Virus record (IMG/VR): IMGVR_UViG_3300017917_002495
Location: 1-44,539 of that record
Direction: 5' to 3' (one strand)
DNA: 44,539 nt
Source of the DNA: a virus
Under the pieces are notes generated by a model. That model was not told where the DNA came from. It did not search any database and saw only the letters and a program-made list of their open reading frames with translations. The first letter of the stretch is position 1. Each line of letters starts with the position of its first letter. Both the position numbers and the translations under genes were made by a program. Shown here piece after piece: positions 13,704-40,375 of this stretch.

Positions 13704-13867
13704 CTTGGTTTACAAAGGTTAACTGATTTTATGCCGTTCAAACTAAAGGTTTGTATAAATTTTGCCATATCATCATTGACACTGATCATCTGAGCAGGCA
13801 TCATGAACTTGTATTGTAGCATCAACCATACACTATAGTCAATCCACCAATCTAGAGGAGTATACAT
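13700..13867 (-). CDS. Small hypothetical protein (55 aa)
   Basis: ATG at 13867 overlaps the stop of the cyclase gene (TAATG) and its own stop overlaps the S11 start (ATGA). The product has an aromatic, weakly amphipathic first half (LDWWIDYSVWLMLQYKF). No domain. The tight coupling is the main argument that it is real. Confidence 0.6.
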   Translation of the reverse strand: MYTPLDWWIDYSVWLMLQYKFMMPAQMISVNDDMAKFIQTFSLNGIKSVNLCKPR

Positions 13868-15954
13868 TATTTCTCGTGGGCTATAAATTCGCCATTCCAA
13901 TCATCGCCTAGATCCTGCTGTTTCATAAATGCACAGCGTTCAATCCACATCTTATAATACTTGTCCATTTGTCCGTCAAACGAGCCTTTTAATTCTCCGC
14001 AGAGTATTGCGGCTGCGTCAAATTGTTTTTCTTTGTATAACTGATGCATCTTATTATGTGTCTCCAGCGACTTGTAATAGGCAGTTTCATCACCTCTAAT
14101 TCTTAACACAGTATAGATAGAGTCTGCTACAGTTTTGCCTTTGGGCTGTAGATTGTCTAGATAGAGATAGAAGAAATCGTTGGCTGTTCTATTATAAGTC
14201 TCTGCGCCGATAATAGCCAATACTCCATAAGCCTTACAACGTGCTTCTAGTCGAGCAGCCGTTGATACCATGTCACCTAAGATATCATAACCATGACGAG
14301 CAGTTGATCCCATTTCACCTATATAACCATCACCTGTATTACAACCCCAGCCCATTGCCGCAGGTGGAAGTCCTAATGCTTCTTTTTCTTTAGTAAATGC
14401 CTGTACAGCATCTAGCATTTCTAGTCCAACTTTGACAATAGTATGTGCATGGTTAGGATCATCTAAGGGAGCACCATGCATGTGCATTGAAGCATCACCT
14501 ACATATTTGATAACCATGCCGTTGGCATTGATAATAGGAATGGTGATAGCATCCATGTAGCCGTTCATATATTTGGCCAGTCCTTCTGGGCCGCCATTGC
14601 CGGGTTTATCGAAGTGTTCGCCAATAGGTGTAAATCCACGTAGGTCTGAGAACATAACCGACACATCTTTCTTTGTGCCTTTCTTGATAAGATCCGGATT
14701 TTCTTGAAGAAGCCTAACAACTTCGGGAGAACAGTAACCTGCGAATTGTTTCTTGATAGCCTGTTTCTGTAGAAATTCACTTACAAATTTGACACCATAG
14801 GCATGCAGAGCGACCAATAGTAGGCCAACTCCAGGGGCAGTAGCGTCAAATAACCATAGAAAATGGTCGAACACAATAAAACTGCCAACAGCCATGCCAC
14901 CAACCAATACCACTGTTGCGATGAGACCTGCATATACATACCTCGTTAAAAATAATAATAGAATACCAGCGGCTGCAATTACAAATATTTCTAAACCGTC
15001 CGCATAGTCAGGACGTTGAATAACAACATTATTAAACATAGTTCCTAGTACCGCAGCTTGAACTTCGTGAGGCCAAATTGATCCCATGGCTGTTGGAACC
15101 GGATTACCTAAACCAGCAGCAGCCACACCCACTATAACCACAGCACCGCCGAAATCTTTAGGCAGTTCAGTCATTGACACTGACCGTGATTTCTGGCTCC
15201 AGTCGATCCACACACGACCTAGGTTGTCTGTTGTGATAGGACCAAACTTTGGTATGCGCATCTTTTCTACACCGTTGTCATTTAATTTAATTTGAACGGT
15301 CGAATCCTGTGCAGCCACACGCAGGGCTTCCATAGCAAGACTGGGATATATTTTTCCATCTACTGCTACCAACAACGGCATTCTACGATTCACTCCGTCG
15401 ATTTCCGGTAGTGTATTCACTATACCAACACCTGCGGCCTTTTGTTCTATGCTGCTTATATTAGCCATAATTCCAGGATATTGAATTATCCTGTCTTGAA
15501 AATCTGATCCTATGACTGCTGTTCCTGGTTGCTTTGCTTCGTTTTTATTTCTATCCGCAGGCATATTAGGCAGTATCACAGGGTACCTAGATAGTGTGTC
15601 TGCTAGAGCTCGATCTCCGCCTTGGCGATCTTTTTCAGTCATTAGTACATTAAACACAACCAACCCTGCATTTCTTAGATAAAGATTTTCTATGAGTGCT
15701 GCATATATTTCACGGTTAAATGGCCATTGTCCGTATTTGTCTAAGGCGTTTTCATCAATATTGACTGTAACAATATTATTTTCGGTCGGAAGTTTGTTTA
15801 CTATTAGAGTATCGAAATATCTTAATCTTATACTTTCTATAAAGACAGGATCAGCTATTCTTATACTTGTTACAAGTATAAGTGTTAATATTGCAGTCCA
15901 TGGACTTAAGATAATTTTTTTAAGGTTTACTTGCTTTGGAAGGGAGATCTTCAT
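13867..15954 (-). CDS. CHASE2-type membrane adenylate cyclase (695 aa)
   Basis: One N-terminal membrane helix, an extracytoplasmic CHASE2 sensor domain (about residues 35-300, including VNIDENALDKYGQWPFNREI), three membrane segments (about 305-385) and a class III cyclase domain. Metal-binding Asp residues are in FSDLRGF and YVGDAS, the adenine Lys in IKYVGD and the adenine Asp in YDILGD, so cAMP is the expected product. The transition-state Asn is replaced by Ser (GDMVSTAARLE), while the catalytic Arg is kept. It ends the envelope operon with CsgG and FecR proteins. Activity may be reduced. Confidence 0.85.
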   Translation of the reverse strand: MKISLPKQVNLKKIILSPWTAILTLILVTSIRIADPVFIESIRLRYFDTLIVNKLPTENNIVTVNIDENALDKYGQWPFNREIYAALIENLYLRNAGLVVFNVLMTEKDRQGGDRALADTLSRYPVILPNMPADRNKNEAKQPGTAVIGSDFQDRIIQYPGIMANISSIEQKAAGVGIVNTLPEIDGVNRRMPLLVAVDGKIYPSLAMEALRVAAQDSTVQIKLNDNGVEKMRIPKFGPITTDNLGRVWIDWSQKSRSVSMTELPKDFGGAVVIVGVAAAGLGNPVPTAMGSIWPHEVQAAVLGTMFNNVVIQRPDYADGLEIFVIAAAGILLLFLTRYVYAGLIATVVLVGGMAVGSFIVFDHFLWLFDATAPGVGLLLVALHAYGVKFVSEFLQKQAIKKQFAGYCSPEVVRLLQENPDLIKKGTKKDVSVMFSDLRGFTPIGEHFDKPGNGGPEGLAKYMNGYMDAITIPIINANGMVIKYVGDASMHMHGAPLDDPNHAHTIVKVGLEMLDAVQAFTKEKEALGLPPAAMGWGCNTGDGYIGEMGSTARHGYDILGDMVSTAARLEARCKAYGVLAIIGAETYNRTANDFFYLYLDNLQPKGKTVADSIYTVLRIRGDETAYYKSLETHNKMHQLYKEKQFDAAAILCGELKGSFDGQMDKYYKMWIERCAFMKQQDLGDDWNGEFIAHEK

Positions 15955-16488: not shown

Positions 16489-16737
16489 CTATTTATTTTT
16501 GAATCTATCTTTGATTAACATGCCCACATATGTGCCTGCAAAGGCTCCTAGCAGAGCAGGTATCAATGCTAGATTGTCTTGAGTATAATTGATTACCGCT
16601 ACGCTGGCAGTGAATGTAACAAATGCTGACCAAAAGCTAGCGGTCAGCGGTTTGTTGTTCTGAATAGAATTTACAAAACAGACATAGATTATATCTGTTA
16701 CAAAAATCGCAAGAAAAGTTATAAAATATGTGAACAT
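16489..16737 (-). CDS. Small membrane protein (82 aa)
   Basis: Three hydrophobic segments (about residues 3-20, 32-48 and 55-75) with a Lys-rich end. ATG at 16737 overlaps the upstream TGA by one base. It is the only gene in the window that ends in TAG, and that TAG is part of an AATAAATA late motif (16490-16497). Function unknown. Confidence 0.7.
   Translation of the reverse strand: MFTYFITFLAIFVTDIIYVCFVNSIQNNKPLTASFWSAFVTFTASVAVINYTQDNLALIPALLGAFAGTYVGMLIKDRFKNK
16490..16497 (-). promoter_or_regulatory. T4-type late promoter octamer
   Basis: AATAAATA on the minus strand, 19 bases before the ATG of the exported protein at 16470; it overlaps the TAG stop of the membrane gene. Confidence 0.5.
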
Positions 16738-19865: not shown

Positions 19866-20545
19866 CAGTTCCCTGTTGATACGGTTACATTATTGCTGTT
19901 GCCGTTAGTGGTAATATTAACAGTGGTGTTAACGGTACCACTTTGTGTGACTGTATGAGAATTACTTGTTCCTGTTACTGATGCAGTTAAATGATGTCCA
20001 GCACCTGCACTGGCACCAGTCATTGAACTAGTAAATGTATTACTATCTCCTAATATAGTTATAGCACTGGTTGAATTGCTTGTGAGTATAGTCTGTGTTA
20101 CAGTATTGCTATCACCAGTGATACTTAATGTATTAGTAATGTTTGACCCTTTGATAGTGCTTGTCACGGTATTCAAGTCGCCAGTAATAGACATCGTACT
20201 GTTCACATTTGTGCAACCTGTTGTTCCGTCGCCACAAGTAAAAGTAATCTGATTAGTGTCACCTACAACGGTTTTACTAATAGTATTACTGCTACCTACT
20301 ACGGTATAGTCAATTGTATTTGCATCACCTGTTTGTGATGTTGTAAGGATATTTGTAGATCCTGTTATCTTGCTCTGTTGATTTAAACCACTGTTACCTA
20401 CTCTATTATTTGCTCCTACCTGTGTGATTGATATCACATTGGTAGAACCAACTTGTTCGATGTATACCCCATTATTAGCGTATGCACCAGATCCTGCAAA
20501 TATCGCAGCCATTATAGTGGCCATCTTATAATAATTTTTTACCAT
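19865..20545 (-). CDS. Curlin-repeat protein, CsgA/CsgB-like (226 aa)
   Basis: After a signal peptide ending in AYA, the protein consists of about eight 20-22 residue repeats of the curlin type, for example VISITQVGANNRVG and NTVTQTILTSNSTSAITILG, rich in Asn, Thr, Ser and Gly. Curlin repeats stack into a beta-helix amyloid. ATG at 20545 follows CGGAGAAAGTAAAA. It lies 48 bases after csgG, so it is the natural export substrate of that pore. Gln/Asn ladder is less regular than in E. coli CsgA. Confidence 0.8.
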   Translation of the reverse strand: MVKNYYKMATIMAAIFAGSGAYANNGVYIEQVGSTNVISITQVGANNRVGNSGLNQQSKITGSTNILTTSQTGDANTIDYTVVGSSNTISKTVVGDTNQITFTCGDGTTGCTNVNSTMSITGDLNTVTSTIKGSNITNTLSITGDSNTVTQTILTSNSTSAITILGDSNTFTSSMTGASAGAGHHLTASVTGTSNSHTVTQSGTVNTTVNITTNGNSNNVTVSTGN

Positions 20546-20593: not shown

Positions 20594-21580
20594 TCATTCT
20601 CCCTTTTTTACTTCTTCTTTTCCGGCCTCACTTTCTGTTTTATTGCCTTCATTGCCTGTTCCGACATTGGACTGCTGTGGTAAGGCTGATGACTGAGTTT
20701 TGGTGGTGGCGGATTCTTTATCGGGCTGTGTCGGAACCAACTCATCTTTCTTCTCCTCCTTCTTTAATATAGGATCGGGTCTAGACGTCTGTGTGGGTTT
20801 TTCTTCTTTATAGCTCCAGTGTCCTTTTCTGGCGCCTTCTTTAATCATTTCTATAACCGCAGCATGGATCGCCAATTGAACAGCCTTGTTCATTGATTCG
20901 TTGGTGGCTGAACCAGTTTCTAGTTCTAGAGATGCTGTGCCAGCATCGTAGAATCTAAGGACTCCTAGTTTATCCATAAAACTAATTACAGTTTTGCTGG
21001 TATTGACTGCAACTAACACTTCTCCTGTGGCTACAGAAACTGCTCGTAAACTTATAGTTACTTCGTCTTGTTGATATTGGGTGGTTGCTCCTATGCCTAG
21101 AATTCTAGCACCGGAACCTCCGCTCATTGTATTTGAATCATAACCTATGATACCGCCTTCAAGAATCATTCCAGCAAACATCATAGGAGGAAGTTGTTGT
21201 GCGTCCTTGCCCTGATATAGTTCTCGCATTTGACGTATAAGTTGACGTTCCTTGACTATGTTATCTAGGCCGCCGCGTTCGAGAACTTTGAACCATTTTC
21301 CATTGCCCACGTCCTGTAGGCTCTTTACTAGGTATGCGTCTGCGCCCTGTGTCACGGCAGAACTAAGGCTGGCAATAACCTGACTAGACTTTCTTTGTCC
21401 AGTCATATCTCGGAAATTATAAACAGCCACAGTAATCGCACCAGAGGCTGGTTCGGCTAATTGTGGTTCTTTTTTTAGTTTAGGTGCGGTAACTACCGGA
21501 TCGTCAAAATTTCTTACATAGTTCCCGACGGTTCCACATCCTGCAAGTGCTATAGCCAATGCTATAGGGGTTAATTTCAT
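20594..21580 (-). CDS. csgG: CsgG-family outer-membrane secretion pore (328 aa)
   Basis: Lipoprotein signal (ALAIALAGC) followed by the CsgG domain: VAVYNFRDMTGQRK, GKWFKVLERGGLDNIVKERQLIR, MILEGGIIGYDSN, GIGATTQYQQDEVTISLR and VNTSKTVISF. Bacterial CsgG makes a nine-subunit lipoprotein channel that secretes curlins (type VIII secretion). The core is complete; a Lys/Glu-rich tail of about 70 residues is extra. ATG at 21580 overlaps the CsgF stop. In a phage it could secrete the neighbouring curlin-type proteins or act as a large envelope pore in lysis. Confidence 0.9.
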   Translation of the reverse strand: MKLTPIALAIALAGCGTVGNYVRNFDDPVVTAPKLKKEPQLAEPASGAITVAVYNFRDMTGQRKSSQVIASLSSAVTQGADAYLVKSLQDVGNGKWFKVLERGGLDNIVKERQLIRQMRELYQGKDAQQLPPMMFAGMILEGGIIGYDSNTMSGGSGARILGIGATTQYQQDEVTISLRAVSVATGEVLVAVNTSKTVISFMDKLGVLRFYDAGTASLELETGSATNESMNKAVQLAIHAAVIEMIKEGARKGHWSYKEEKPTQTSRPDPILKKEEKKDELVPTQPDKESATTKTQSSALPQQSNVGTGNEGNKTESEAGKEEVKKGE

Positions 21581-22038
21581 TAAGGTGCTAGCCATCCGAA
21601 GTCTCCAATTGGTACAGTCATTGTGGTAATATTACCGTTGGCATCCCTAATGGTAATTTCTATTAAACTACCTGTTTTTGTATAGGTAATTGTTCCACCA
21701 TTGAATGCAAAGGTTCCGGACGCTTGTGTTCCTTGTCCTTCGAATAATTTTTCTGTGATTTGTCTTGCTAGTTCGTTGTAGACACGACTTTCTAAGTTCG
21801 CCACAAATTTAGCCATAGTGGTGTTCTTAGCGTCGTTTTCAGCTTTCAATTCGTCTGCTTTTTTTTCAGCAGCGATAGCAAGTTTACGACTCAGTTCTTG
21901 ACTGTAGATCGTTAATGCGTGACTTGAATATCCTATGCCAGAAAAAGCCGGACTATTGAAATTATGGACCATTTCTGCAGCATATACTGGTGCGATAGTA
22001 GTCGCAACGATGCTGCATAATGCAATAATTTTTCTCAT
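21580..22038 (-). CDS. csgF: CsgF-like curli assembly factor (152 aa)
   Basis: Signal peptide (cut after APVYA), then MVHNFNSPAFSGIGYSSHAL, which matches the CsgF N-terminus that plugs into CsgG (phenylalanine/asparagine-rich, NPxFGG-like). The C-terminal part is a short helix plus beta sheet, about the same size as E. coli CsgF (138 aa). ATG follows GGGAGCGAATTACA; a TTAAATA motif lies upstream. Adjacent csgG makes the assignment firm. Confidence 0.8.
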   Translation of the reverse strand: MRKIIALCSIVATTIAPVYAAEMVHNFNSPAFSGIGYSSHALTIYSQELSRKLAIAAEKKADELKAENDAKNTTMAKFVANLESRVYNELARQITEKLFEGQGTQASGTFAFNGGTITYTKTGSLIEITIRDANGNITTMTVPIGDFGWLAP

Positions 22039-25595: not shown

Positions 25596-27494
25596 TTAGT
25601 CTTTTTTCTCCGTAAAGGTAGCATCGACTACATTGTCATCGTTTGGCGAAGCTTGGGATTGGGCAGTTGTTGCCTGCTCTTTAACTTGCCTTTTTTCCAA
25701 CAATATTTTCATTGCCGGATAAACTTTTTCAAGTTCTGATTTGATCTTATCAGTGTCATCACTTTTTGCTGCTTCTCGGACAGCAGCAATAGCAGATTCA
25801 ATTTCAGACTTTTCAGTTTCGGTGAGATCGTCTTTGAATTCTTCCATGTCGCGAGTAACTTCGTGAATGGTTGATTCTGCTTGATTCTTTGCTTCAATAA
25901 GTTCTCTAGACTTCTTATCTGCCTCTGCATTGGCTTCTGCATCTCTGATCATCTGTTCTATTTGTTCTTTGCTTAGACCGGAATCAGATTTGATTGTGAT
26001 TTTGTTTTCTTTGCCAGTGCCCTTGTCTTTGGCACTGATGTGCATGATACCGTTGGCATCGATATCAAAAGTAACTTCAATCTGAGGTTGTCCTCTACGT
26101 GCTGGCGCAATACCTTCTAAATTGAATTCGCCAAGCATTTTGTTATGCTGGCATAATTCACGCTCTCCCTGAAAGACCTTGATAGTCACAGCAGGTTGAT
26201 TGTCTTCTGCTGTGGAAAAAGTCTGAGTACCCTTGGTAGGAATGGTTGTGTTTTTCTGGATGATCTTAGCCATAACTCCGCCAAGCGTTTCAATACCTAA
26301 GCTCAACGGTGTAACATCTAAGAGTAAAACGTCTTTGCGATCACCACCTAGAACAGCACCTTGAATAGCTGCACCAACTGCCACAGCTTCGTCGGGGTTG
26401 ACATCTTTGCGAGGTGCTTTACCAAACAACTTTTCTACCTCTTCCTGTACCTTAGGCATACGTGTTTGACCGCCTACAAGGATGACTTCGTCGATGTCAG
26501 CAGGTGTTACTCCTGCATCCTGCATGGCAGTTCGACACGGTGCCAAAGATCTATTGATTAGATCTTCAACTAGGCTTTCTAGTTTGCTACGTGTAATCTT
26601 AACAACCAAATGTTTAGGACCACTAGCATCTGCTGTGATGTAGGGTAGGTTAACTTCTGTTTGAGAACTATTAGAAAGTTCAATCTTAGCTTTTTCAGCC
26701 GCATCCTTTAGACGCTGTAATGCCAACATGTCTTTGGTCAAATCAACACCTTGATCTTTTTTGAACTCATCTACTAGATAGTCCATGATGCGTTGGTCAA
26801 AGTCTTCACCGCCTAGGAATGTATCACCATTGGTTGATAATACTTCAATTTGTTTGTCGCCGTCGATGTTGGCGATTTCAATAATACTTACGTCAAATGT
26901 GCCGCCGCCGAGATCGTACACTGCTACTTTACGATCCTTGTTATCTTTCTTATCCACACCATAGGCCAAGGCCGCTGCTGTGGGTTCATTGATAATACGT
27001 AGAACTTCTAAACCGGCGATCTGACCAGCATCCTTGGTCGCCTGACGCTGCGAGTCATTGAAGTACGCCGGCACCGTGATCACGGCTTCGGTGACTTCTT
27101 CACCGAGATAATCTTCCGCAGTCTTTTTCATCTTGCGAAGAACTTCTGCCGAAATCTGTGGGGGTGCTAATTCTTTGTTCTGTGCCCTAACCCATGCATC
27201 TCCGTTTTTGCTTTCGAAAATTTCATAAGGCATAAGATCGAGATCTTTTTGCACAGCCTGTTCTTTAAACTTGCGTCCAATTAGACGCTTACTTGCATAA
27301 ATTGTATTTTTTGGATTAGTTACTGCCTGACGTTTCGCACTGGCACCAACTAAAATTTCATCGTTGGCGTAGGCAACGATACTAGGTGTGGTACGAGCAC
27401 CTTCAGAATTTTCAATAACTTTGGAAGTTCCATTTTCGACGATAGCCACGCAAGAGTTCGTGGTGCCGAGGTCAATACCGATGATCTTAGACAT
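25596..27494 (-). CDS. dnaK: DnaK (Hsp70) chaperone (632 aa)
   Basis: Full length compared with E. coli DnaK (638 aa). Begins [18 protein letters not shown] (ATPase phosphate loop), has [11 protein letters not shown] and [13 protein letters not shown], the hydrophobic linker [19 protein letters not shown], the substrate-binding domain and the end NVVDATF. It folds proteins by ATP-driven binding, normally with DnaJ and GrpE; neither is in this window, so host partners would be used. Ribosome site AAGGAG. Full-length DnaK is uncommon in phages. Co-directional with hsp20 and clpS. Confidence 0.95.
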
Positions 27495-38328: not shown

Positions 38329-38358
38329 GACAATACTTATTCTCTGTATATAATATTC

Positions 38359-38385
38359 AAAAAAAAGGCTACCGAAGTAGCCTTT
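38359..38385 (-). terminator. Rho-independent terminator after the tmRNA
   Basis: AAAGGCTACTTCGGTAGCCTTT hairpin with a UUCG loop followed by eight T on the minus strand. Confidence 0.9.
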
Positions 38386-38394
38386 ACTATTTTT

Positions 38395-38712
38395 GGTTAC
38401 AAGGTATAGTTACCCCGGACTTGCAGTTTCTTAGGCTGCTAGTGCAACACGACCGCCTACTGTGTTACCAGTGAAGCTTAGTGCTGCAAAGTCAAATGAA
38501 TCGTCGTTTGCGATTACTTTTTTTGCGTCTTCGGCCGGGAATCCCCAACCCTACGGTTTCTGCCTTACCGTGCTGTCCACTTGTTTACTCTTTGCCCTGT
38601 CGAAACCTAATTCATCCCCACCTAAATATACAAACATACACTTAGGTGGAGATGCCGGGGTTCGAACCCGGGTCCAGAACACTTTTCTATCCGCTTCATA
38701 CAGCAATAACTT
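38395..38712 (-). ncRNA. ssrA: Circularly permuted (two-piece) tmRNA
   Basis: The acceptor half comes first: a T arm with CCGGG-TTCGAAC-CCCGG, then CATCTCC-A-CC ending at 38645. A 25-base spacer (38620-38644) follows, then the coding half from 38619 with GGGGATGAATTAGGTTTCGAC. GGGGATG pairs with CATCTCC and gives the G3-U70 pair used for alanine charging. The resume codon GCA (38511) follows GTAATC; the tag starts ANDDSFDFAALSF, ends GGRVALAA, has 26 residues and stops at TAA (38431-38433). ACAGC and GCTGT in the two halves can pair. Permuted tmRNAs occur in alphaproteobacteria, some cyanobacteria and some betaproteobacteria. The outer ends are approximate. Confidence 0.93.
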
Positions 38713-38714
38713 AC

Positions 38715-38743
38715 AGTATATATTTATTGTGACAGATTGTCAA
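38715..38743 (-). promoter_or_regulatory. tmRNA promoter, early type with embedded late octamer
   Basis: TTGACA (38738-38743), 17 bases, TATACT (38715-38720) on the minus strand; the spacer contains AATAAATA (38721-38728). The -35 box overlaps the stop of the Ntn hydrolase gene. Confidence 0.8.
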
Positions 38744-39632: not shown

Positions 39633-39640
39633 TATTTATT
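39633..39640 (-). promoter_or_regulatory. T4-type late promoter octamer
   Basis: AATAAATA on the minus strand, 5 bases before the Ntn hydrolase ATG; overlaps the stop of the previous gene. Confidence 0.6.
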
Positions 39641-40214
39641 AACTGTACTCAAACGGTGTACTAGGATGTCCATAGTCCACCGGAATAGTTTCTTCCTTGA
39701 TATTATCGTACATTTCGTAATAGCTTTCGTTTGGCTTAACGATACGGAAATCGTTGGTATATTTCAACCCGGCTATCGTTAAATCAGGACCATTTAATAG
39801 ATCACAAATAACAAATCCTGTAGCACATCTACCCAAGATATTCTTGAATGGACTGTGTCGGTATTCGTTACGCTGTAGAGCTTTATGGAAAGCACAATTG
39901 GGTCTGAACATAACACGATTAATGCCTAACTTTTGGTTACGCAGTCGTATTTTATCTATTAGAGTTAATGTGGAGATTGTAGCAGAATTTTCTTCGTCGA
40001 TGCGTAGTAATACGTCTTTGACTTTGATGCTACCTTTTGTGTGACTGTTATCAGGTGTTTCCTTAGTGCTCCAAGGAACAGTACAGTCAACATGATTTAC
40101 ATACAGGGTTTCGCCATGGAATTTTAAGACCCACATAGGAACGGTCTCGTCTTCTAAGTGCTTTTTGTTAAAGTGGAAGACACAATCTTTACAAGCATAT
40201 TCAATCTACGACAT
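39639..40214 (-). CDS. Hypothetical phage protein with an in-frame amber codon at position 3 (191 aa if read through)
   Basis: A ribosome site AAAGGAAAATAAA precedes ATG at 40214. The codons are ATG TCG TAG (TAG at 40206-40208), then an open frame to TAA at 39639. The 23 codons between TAG and the next ATG (40136) are clearly coding: IEYACKDCVFHFNKKHLEDE, with a CxxC pair, run into MWVLKFHGETLYVNHVDC. A start at 40136 would drop that CxxC part and has no ribosome site. The protein has further Cys/His residues (FRPNCAFHKAL, LGRCATGF) and no known function. A tRNA with an apparent CUA anticodon lies 86 bases upstream. Confidence 0.75.
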
Positions 40215-40223
40215 TTTATTTTC

Positions 40224-40269
40224 CTTTAAAAGTGCAGGGCTTCCACCTGTCTCCCACCTCGTTTTAAAG
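40224..40269 (-). ncRNA. Putative structured leader RNA, copy B
   Basis: CTTTAAAA (40224-40231) and TTTTAAAG (40262-40269) are perfectly complementary and enclose the words AGTGCAG and ACCTCGTTT shared with copy A at 84-121. An alternative stem, AAGTCC (40267-40272) with GGACTT (40282-40287), would compete with the first. It lies between a late promoter octamer and the ribosome site of the amber-codon gene, as a regulatory leader would. Confidence 0.5.
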
Positions 40270-40289
40270 TCCGCGTGTCCAGGACTTTT

Positions 40290-40297
40290 TATTTATT
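40290..40297 (-). promoter_or_regulatory. T4-type late promoter octamer
   Basis: AATAAATA on the minus strand between the tRNA and the structured leader. Confidence 0.55.
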
Positions 40298-40300
40298 AGT

Positions 40301-40375
40301 TGGTGCGCTAGATGGGAATCGAACCCACTAACCAGAGTTTTAGAGGCTCCTAACCGACCGTCGGTACTCTAGCGC
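40301..40375 (-). tRNA. tRNA with apparent CUA (amber suppressor) anticodon
   Basis: Seven-pair acceptor GCGCTAG/CTAGCGC, discriminator A and encoded CCA; T arm GTGGG-TTCGATT-CCCAT; five-base variable loop. The anticodon arm is GGAGC-CTCTAAA-ACTCT (a G-U pair, three normal pairs and a C-A mismatch next to the loop), which puts CTA at positions 34-36 after T33 and before A37. The D arm is unusual (three good pairs, A at position 8). The amino acid is not certain; no close relative was recognised. If CUA is right it reads UAG. Confidence 0.75.

Follow-up and report, generated by a model that had tools for sequence, protein, structure and literature searches.

The release factor 2 gene of Escherichia coli, prfB, is autoregulated by a +1 frameshift at CUU UGA, and the bar minigenes of phage lambda, in which a stop comes after a few codons, are associated with peptidyl-tRNA drop-off. 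Ribosomes held in the first codons of a gene lose short peptidyl-tRNAs, which are recycled by peptidyl-tRNA hydrolase (Pth) (PMC10192219). TAG-recoded phages (code 15; crAss-like, Lak and phAss-1) encode a CUA suppressor tRNA and read UAG as an amino acid, with a proposed role in gene control; in phAss-1, 41 ORFs carry TAGs (PMC10607447). Orphan CUA tRNAs have also been reported in standard-code jumbo phages, namely two in XacN1, for which no targets could be found (PMC5852040), and one in RsoM2USA (PMC8504454).

The locus described here, from a viral DNA stretch of 44,539 nucleotides analysed as a whole (the window), recalls each of these systems and departs from each. As in prfB, an early stop lies in frame in a translation gene whose expression would hang on stop-codon competition, but the frame continues unchanged past the TAG in all relatives, a dedicated phage tRNA would read the UAG, and the gene encodes either Pth2 or a small new protein rather than a release factor, the window product having no Pfam, PHROG or NCBIfam match and the alternative locked gene being PTH2. 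The CUA tRNA and the reading of UAG as an amino acid are shared with the code 15 phages; there, however, many genes carry TAGs, whereas here one gene (rarely two) per genome has a single TAG near its start and TAG is still a normal stop. An ORF of a few codons ending in a stop, with Pth acting on the drop-off product, is common to this arrangement and to the bar minigenes (PMC10192219), except that in the present loci the 5' end of the Pth2 (or partner) gene forms the short ORF. Finally, XacN1 and RsoM2USA are likewise standard-code phages with a CUA tRNA, and an amber-start gene with a Pth2 domain in XacN1 is a candidate for the target that its authors lacked.

We consider it highly probable that the window gene is under a translational amber lock: a suppressor tRNA dedicated to the task would compete with a UAG-reading release factor, and its success would allow a Pth2/partner module to be made. 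Suppressor tRNAs, read-through and early-stop control are each already known; a search of open-access papers, a body that leaves most subscription papers and preprints outside, turned up no case of a tRNA dedicated to one locked gene in phages with the standard code. The proposal gives the amber-suppressor tRNAs of such jumbo phages a likely target, conserved and specific, ties phage tRNAs to the control of peptidyl-tRNA hydrolase and, if true, describes a natural translational switch of one tRNA for one gene.

The amber-start gene and its relatives

The minus strand of the window reads AAAGGAAAATAAA-ATG-TCG-TAG-ATT-GAA-TAT-GCT-TGT, with ATG TCG TAG at 40214-40206, and after the TAG the same frame stays open until a TAA at 39641-39639 (Table 1). 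A sequence-only reading had picked out this start with its ribosome site and uninterrupted frame, together with an upstream tRNA in the same direction with a CTCTAAA loop. Both observations hold, and the anticodon is CUA and no other. The CxxC motif (ACKDC) that it noted is not conserved, most relatives having ACKDV.

Table 1. Features of the amber-start locus in the window
Feature	Position	Strand	Details and basis
Amber-locked gene (predicted)	39639-40214	-	191 aa if TAG = one residue (M-S-[TAG]-I-E-Y-A-C...); open frame, relatives
Start-proximal amber codon, TAG = codon 3	40206-40208	-	TAG is the stop in all 93 distinct relatives that have one upstream of the core
Shine-Dalgarno-like AAAGGAA ahead of ATG	40221-40227	-	Read directly; position relative to ATG kept in relatives
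Conserved N-terminal domain, WW-domain-like motif	39969-40205	-	FHFNKxHL..PMWVxK..GxTxYVNH..TKETPDNxxTKGSIKxK; alignments, model
C-terminal alpha/beta region	39642-39968	-	Model pLDDT 88 overall; missing from shortest relatives (76-92 aa)
tRNA, CUA anticodon, encoded CCA	40301-40375	-	Rfam tRNA 35.2 bits; covariation
Anticodon CTA (CUA) in loop CTCTAAA	40341-40343	-	Flanking pair 31-39 = C.A; read directly and alignment

Three scans of viral contigs with the window gene placed relatives on well over 100 of them (340 matching stretches were counted in one scan), and a fourth scan was made with the Phosso form. In the 93 distinct genes with a stop before the conserved core and no ATG between, this stop is always TAG and never TAA or TGA. 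It occupies codon 2 to 12, behind a short peptide that varies (MK, MA, MS, MTQQ, MSQS, MTDLNPIAI, MSNEKIPRI), and the Shine-Dalgarno sequence keeps its place beside the ATG whatever the ATG-TAG distance (1 to about 10 codons). The base after the TAG is A 89 times and G four times, never C or T, and the next codon may be ATT, ATC, ATA, ACT, AAA, AAC, GTA, GTC or GTT. The relatives do not begin at the equivalent of 40136, and a sequencing error is ruled out because the TAG is nearly universal in the family. The 23 codons that follow it, said in the sequence-only reading to look coding, are under purifying selection (median pS 0.73, median pN 0.096; pN below pS in 1496 of 1500 pairs), so that a single conserved in-frame TAG stands in a selected frame, as expected of a suppressor-tRNA-dependent gene. 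The TAG-only stop, the selection on the codons behind it and the varied next codon together lend strong support, at the level of sequence, to the TAG being read in frame.

An unbiased scan for a conserved ATG followed within at most 12 codons by a stop and then a long frame without another start yielded large sense-strand clusters for TAG only, and in two families only: the window gene (83 members) and a second gene (9 members; see below). One more TAG cluster of 9 runs antisense to the region of the window-gene family, and most other clusters with aligned in-frame stops were set aside as resembling antisense or shadow frames. No homologue of the window gene was confirmed in bacterial genomes. 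The isolated phage RHph_I1_18 carries an unannotated relative, ATG-AGT-GAG-TTC-ATG-TAG-AAC-GAA..., directly followed by a CUA tRNA. In Phosso, which also carries a CUA tRNA, the domain gene (the window-gene homologue) is fused and devoid of TAG, which counts against the lock.

The linked CUA tRNA

The window tRNA lies 86 nt upstream of the amber-start gene, both on the minus strand. Its Rfam score exceeds the gathering cut-off of 29 bits, and on model R1, whose source rows include the window tRNA, it reaches 82 bits. A covariance model was used because ARAGORN alone did not call this tRNA and missed those of several relatives as well. When the window tRNA is aligned with 35 related CUA tRNAs, 92.8% of the cloverleaf cells are paired and 118 are changed on both sides, against 32 in shuffles. 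Within the flank sequence retrieved for each locus, a same-strand CUA tRNA accompanies 81 of 92 distinct TAG-bearing loci, mostly at most 2 kb upstream, and none lies on the opposite strand; four long contigs that were counted have exactly one CUA tRNA each. At L106, L131, L042 and a few other loci it is missing from the examined flank or is a pattern match only, which speaks against the lock. Chance is excluded as the source of the TAG and tRNA arrangement. As far as sequences can tell, comparison of the relatives shows initiation at the ATG, in-frame reading, specificity for TAG and linkage to the tRNA.

Most of the CUA tRNAs share G1-C72, C2-G71, G3-C70 and A73. Nearest-neighbour comparison among phage tRNAs gave no consistent isotype; A73 together with U35 would presumably suit LysRS, an assumption that we hold with low confidence. 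Next to the anticodon loop, positions 31 and 39 fail to pair in 60 of 78 CUA tRNAs versus 14 of 394 other tRNAs of the same phages (as C.A, A.C or C.C in the CUA tRNAs of L001-L160). This mismatch might weaken decoding; altered anticodon loops are proposed as a phage-tRNA escape from host nucleases (PMC10264068). An expanded-loop frameshift tRNA, considered as a reading of the unpaired 31-39, was rejected because the frame does not change.

Pth2, a second amber-start gene

In one clade, the window-gene homologue begins with a plain ATG and the adjacent upstream gene, directly behind the CUA tRNA, reads ATG-ACT-TAG-ATT-AAC.... This second locked gene matches peptidyl-tRNA hydrolase 2 (PF01981, cut-off 23) at 24.9 bits in L144; the same family is found next to the domain gene in Phosso as well, at 60.6 bits, and a Pth2 partner was matched in 12 of 23 genomes. 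A Pth2 scan returned 16 loci, 15 of them with an intact 5' end; each of these 15 has a start-proximal TAG and a CUA tRNA 115-270 nt upstream. On contig G001, which has two CUA tRNAs, the domain gene has ATG where the TAG would be and the upstream Pth2 reads ATG-AAA-ATG-GCA-TAG, whereas in G015 the domain gene and Pth2 both carry TAG. Where the two genes are adjacent, the TAG is usually in the first and the partner then starts with a plain ATG. The amber codon thus goes with the module, most often with whichever gene comes first in it, and not with a residue of one protein.

The same configuration, ATG followed by 1-4 codons and a TAG before the Pth2 frame, is found in the cultured phages CBB, GAP32, Kaldavass, XbC2, Serratia BF, pEa_SNUABM_19, Acinetobacter ME3, Salmonella phage Arash, Tenacibaculum pT24, XacN1 and Stenotrophomonas RAS14, and in four uncultured huge phages. 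The XacN1 case is weaker because an ATG comes five codons after the TAG; RAS14 has the TAG and post-TAG sequence of XacN1 without the early ATG. The Pth2 start of Cane17 is ambiguous (ATG-TAG-GTG), and the Pth2 genes of RaK2, K64-1 and Hallingskeid have no start-proximal TAG. Most of the cultured jumbo phages with an amber-locked Pth2 have a CUA tRNA: ARAGORN called one in CBB, GAP32, BF, pEa_SNUABM_19, Arash, RAS14, pT24 and ME3 (where an annotated CTA tRNA lies 490 nt upstream of the amber Pth2) and two in XacN1, as well as one in LR756500, LR756501, LR756511 and Cane17. A non-exhaustive pattern search found no CUA tRNA in Kaldavass, RaK2 or Hallingskeid and, in XbC2 and LR745206, matches of which none was confirmed as a CUA tRNA. 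An amber Pth2 without a confirmed CUA tRNA, as in Kaldavass, XbC2 and also LR745206, counts against the lock. Atu_ph07, whose domain gene lacks the TAG, gave no CUA match; a UCA suppressor has been reported in this phage (PMC6102473).

At amber-start loci, the annotation of several deposited genomes shows either nothing or a shortened CDS, and the lock would explain why the window-gene family and Pth2 are annotated truncated or missed.

Proposed mechanism and alternative explanations

Under the translational amber lock, a ribosome would initiate at the ATG and reach the UAG at codon 2-12 after incorporating 1 to about 10 residues. Should a class-1 release factor reading UAG win at this point, only a tiny peptide would be made; should the charged phage CUA tRNA win, the same frame would continue into the full protein, either the small protein with a WW-like motif or the peptidyl-tRNA hydrolase (Pth2). 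Output would thus depend on how much charged phage CUA tRNA there is relative to UAG-reading release factor, and efficient synthesis of the locked protein would wait until the phage tRNA exists. The lock would in this way act as regulation of output, and the Pth2/partner module would probably serve translation, Pth2 freeing tRNAs from dropped peptidyl-tRNA. The sequence-only reading had proposed a suppressor-tRNA switch for late-gene control. Amber decoding by the linked CUA tRNA as a condition for the protein is supported, but late-gene control is not retained: nothing found points to late genes, and the locked partner, Pth2, points to translation maintenance.

Given that ribosomes held early drop peptidyl-tRNAs that Pth recycles, we speculate that a locked Pth2 gene could feed back on itself. 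A fuller jumbo-phage feedback circuit is a tentative and rather doubtful extension of this idea. In it, competition between the CUA tRNA and UAG-reading release factors, including a phage RF1-type factor with in-frame UGAs or a CUU-UAG frameshift site, would adjust how much Pth2 and partner protein is made to the translation state (termination capacity, tRNA damage and peptidyl-tRNA load).

Alternatively, the amber codon may be read constitutively, its point being a particular residue at this site and not regulation. Such a reading, which would fit the retention of a TAG that a single change would remove and its position directly before I/V/T-E in the domain gene of most relatives, is improbable, as the residues on either side are not constant, the amber is found now in one and now in the other of two unrelated proteins, and relatives without the TAG simply have an ATG start at that place.

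Still less should be expected of the idea that ATG-x-TAG forms a mini leader ORF, with re-initiation of the protein just past the stop. The codon after the TAG is ATT, a rare known start codon, in 70 of the 93 genes, but it can also be AAA, ACT, AAC or GTx; since this codon varies and no ATG precedes the core, re-initiation is not the general route. Nor would a leader demand TAG to the exclusion of TAA and TGA, and the linkage to the CUA tRNA would be left unexplained.

That UAG is itself the start codon and the CUA tRNA an initiator is hardly credible, even though the tRNA serves a single gene in each genome and engineered amber initiators exist: the in-frame ATG keeps its Shine-Dalgarno spacing while the distance to the TAG varies, and the CUA tRNAs have a paired 1-72 (G-C), where bacterial initiator tRNAs are mismatched.

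Genome-wide use of code 15, with TAG as a sense codon, deserves practically no credence despite the phage-encoded CUA tRNA and the rare use of TAG as a stop in the window, where it ends 1 of 79 predicted ORFs and none of the 52 genes of at least 100 aa, because TAG still terminates ordinary genes in related genomes (30/342, 17/191, 8/310 and 10/137, or 3-9%) and conserved start-proximal in-frame TAGs, far from spreading to many genes, are confined to the window-gene family and Pth2. Conserved internal TAGs in structural genes are absent so far. A TAG at 16489 in the window was rejected as a further case; it is an ordinary stop, and the gene behind it has its own start.

The protein and other features of these genomes

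The core domain was modelled at pLDDT 94 (83-aa form). Searches of Pfam, PHROGs, NCBIfam and PDB sequences with the window protein gave nothing significant, and a fold search of the PDB with the model gave no match at E<=0.001; a fold search of a viral library returned only unnamed or DUF phage proteins. The YVNH-W motif resembles the WW domain (PF00397), but 6 of 91 members match, below significance (best E 0.064), and membership of this family was rejected in favour of a likeness of motif.

A permuted tmRNA at 38340-38736 of the window (minus strand; Rfam tmRNA_permuted 122.8 bits), with an unusually long predicted tag, ANDDSFDFAALSFTGNTVGGRVALAA, lies shortly downstream of the gene that follows the amber-locked one, and is near the locked gene in several relatives too. 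Elsewhere on the minus strand, the window encodes a CHASE2-adenylate/guanylate cyclase (13867-15954), a CsgG-like curli secretion protein (20594-21595) and an Hsp70 (25596-27494).

A phage RF1-type release factor gene (PPT motif, GGQ) with in-frame UGAs occurs in L286 (16598-17272, plus strand) and on the minus strand in L307, L322 and L207; its product matches NCBIfam RF1 models below cut-off. The RF1-type gene of L158, L150 and L165 has a CTT TAG C site after which the frame goes on at +1, prfB-like but at UAG. In L288 (G007), a UCA-anticodon tRNA at 19866-19941 accompanies a release-factor gene with two in-frame UGAs. Downstream of the domain gene in L151 and L162 lie tiny ORFs, ATG ACA TAG ATT AGA GGA CCA ACT TAA and ATG ATG TAG ATA CAC AAA AGA GGA CCG TAA, in which a start-proximal TAG is followed by a short tail with RGP.
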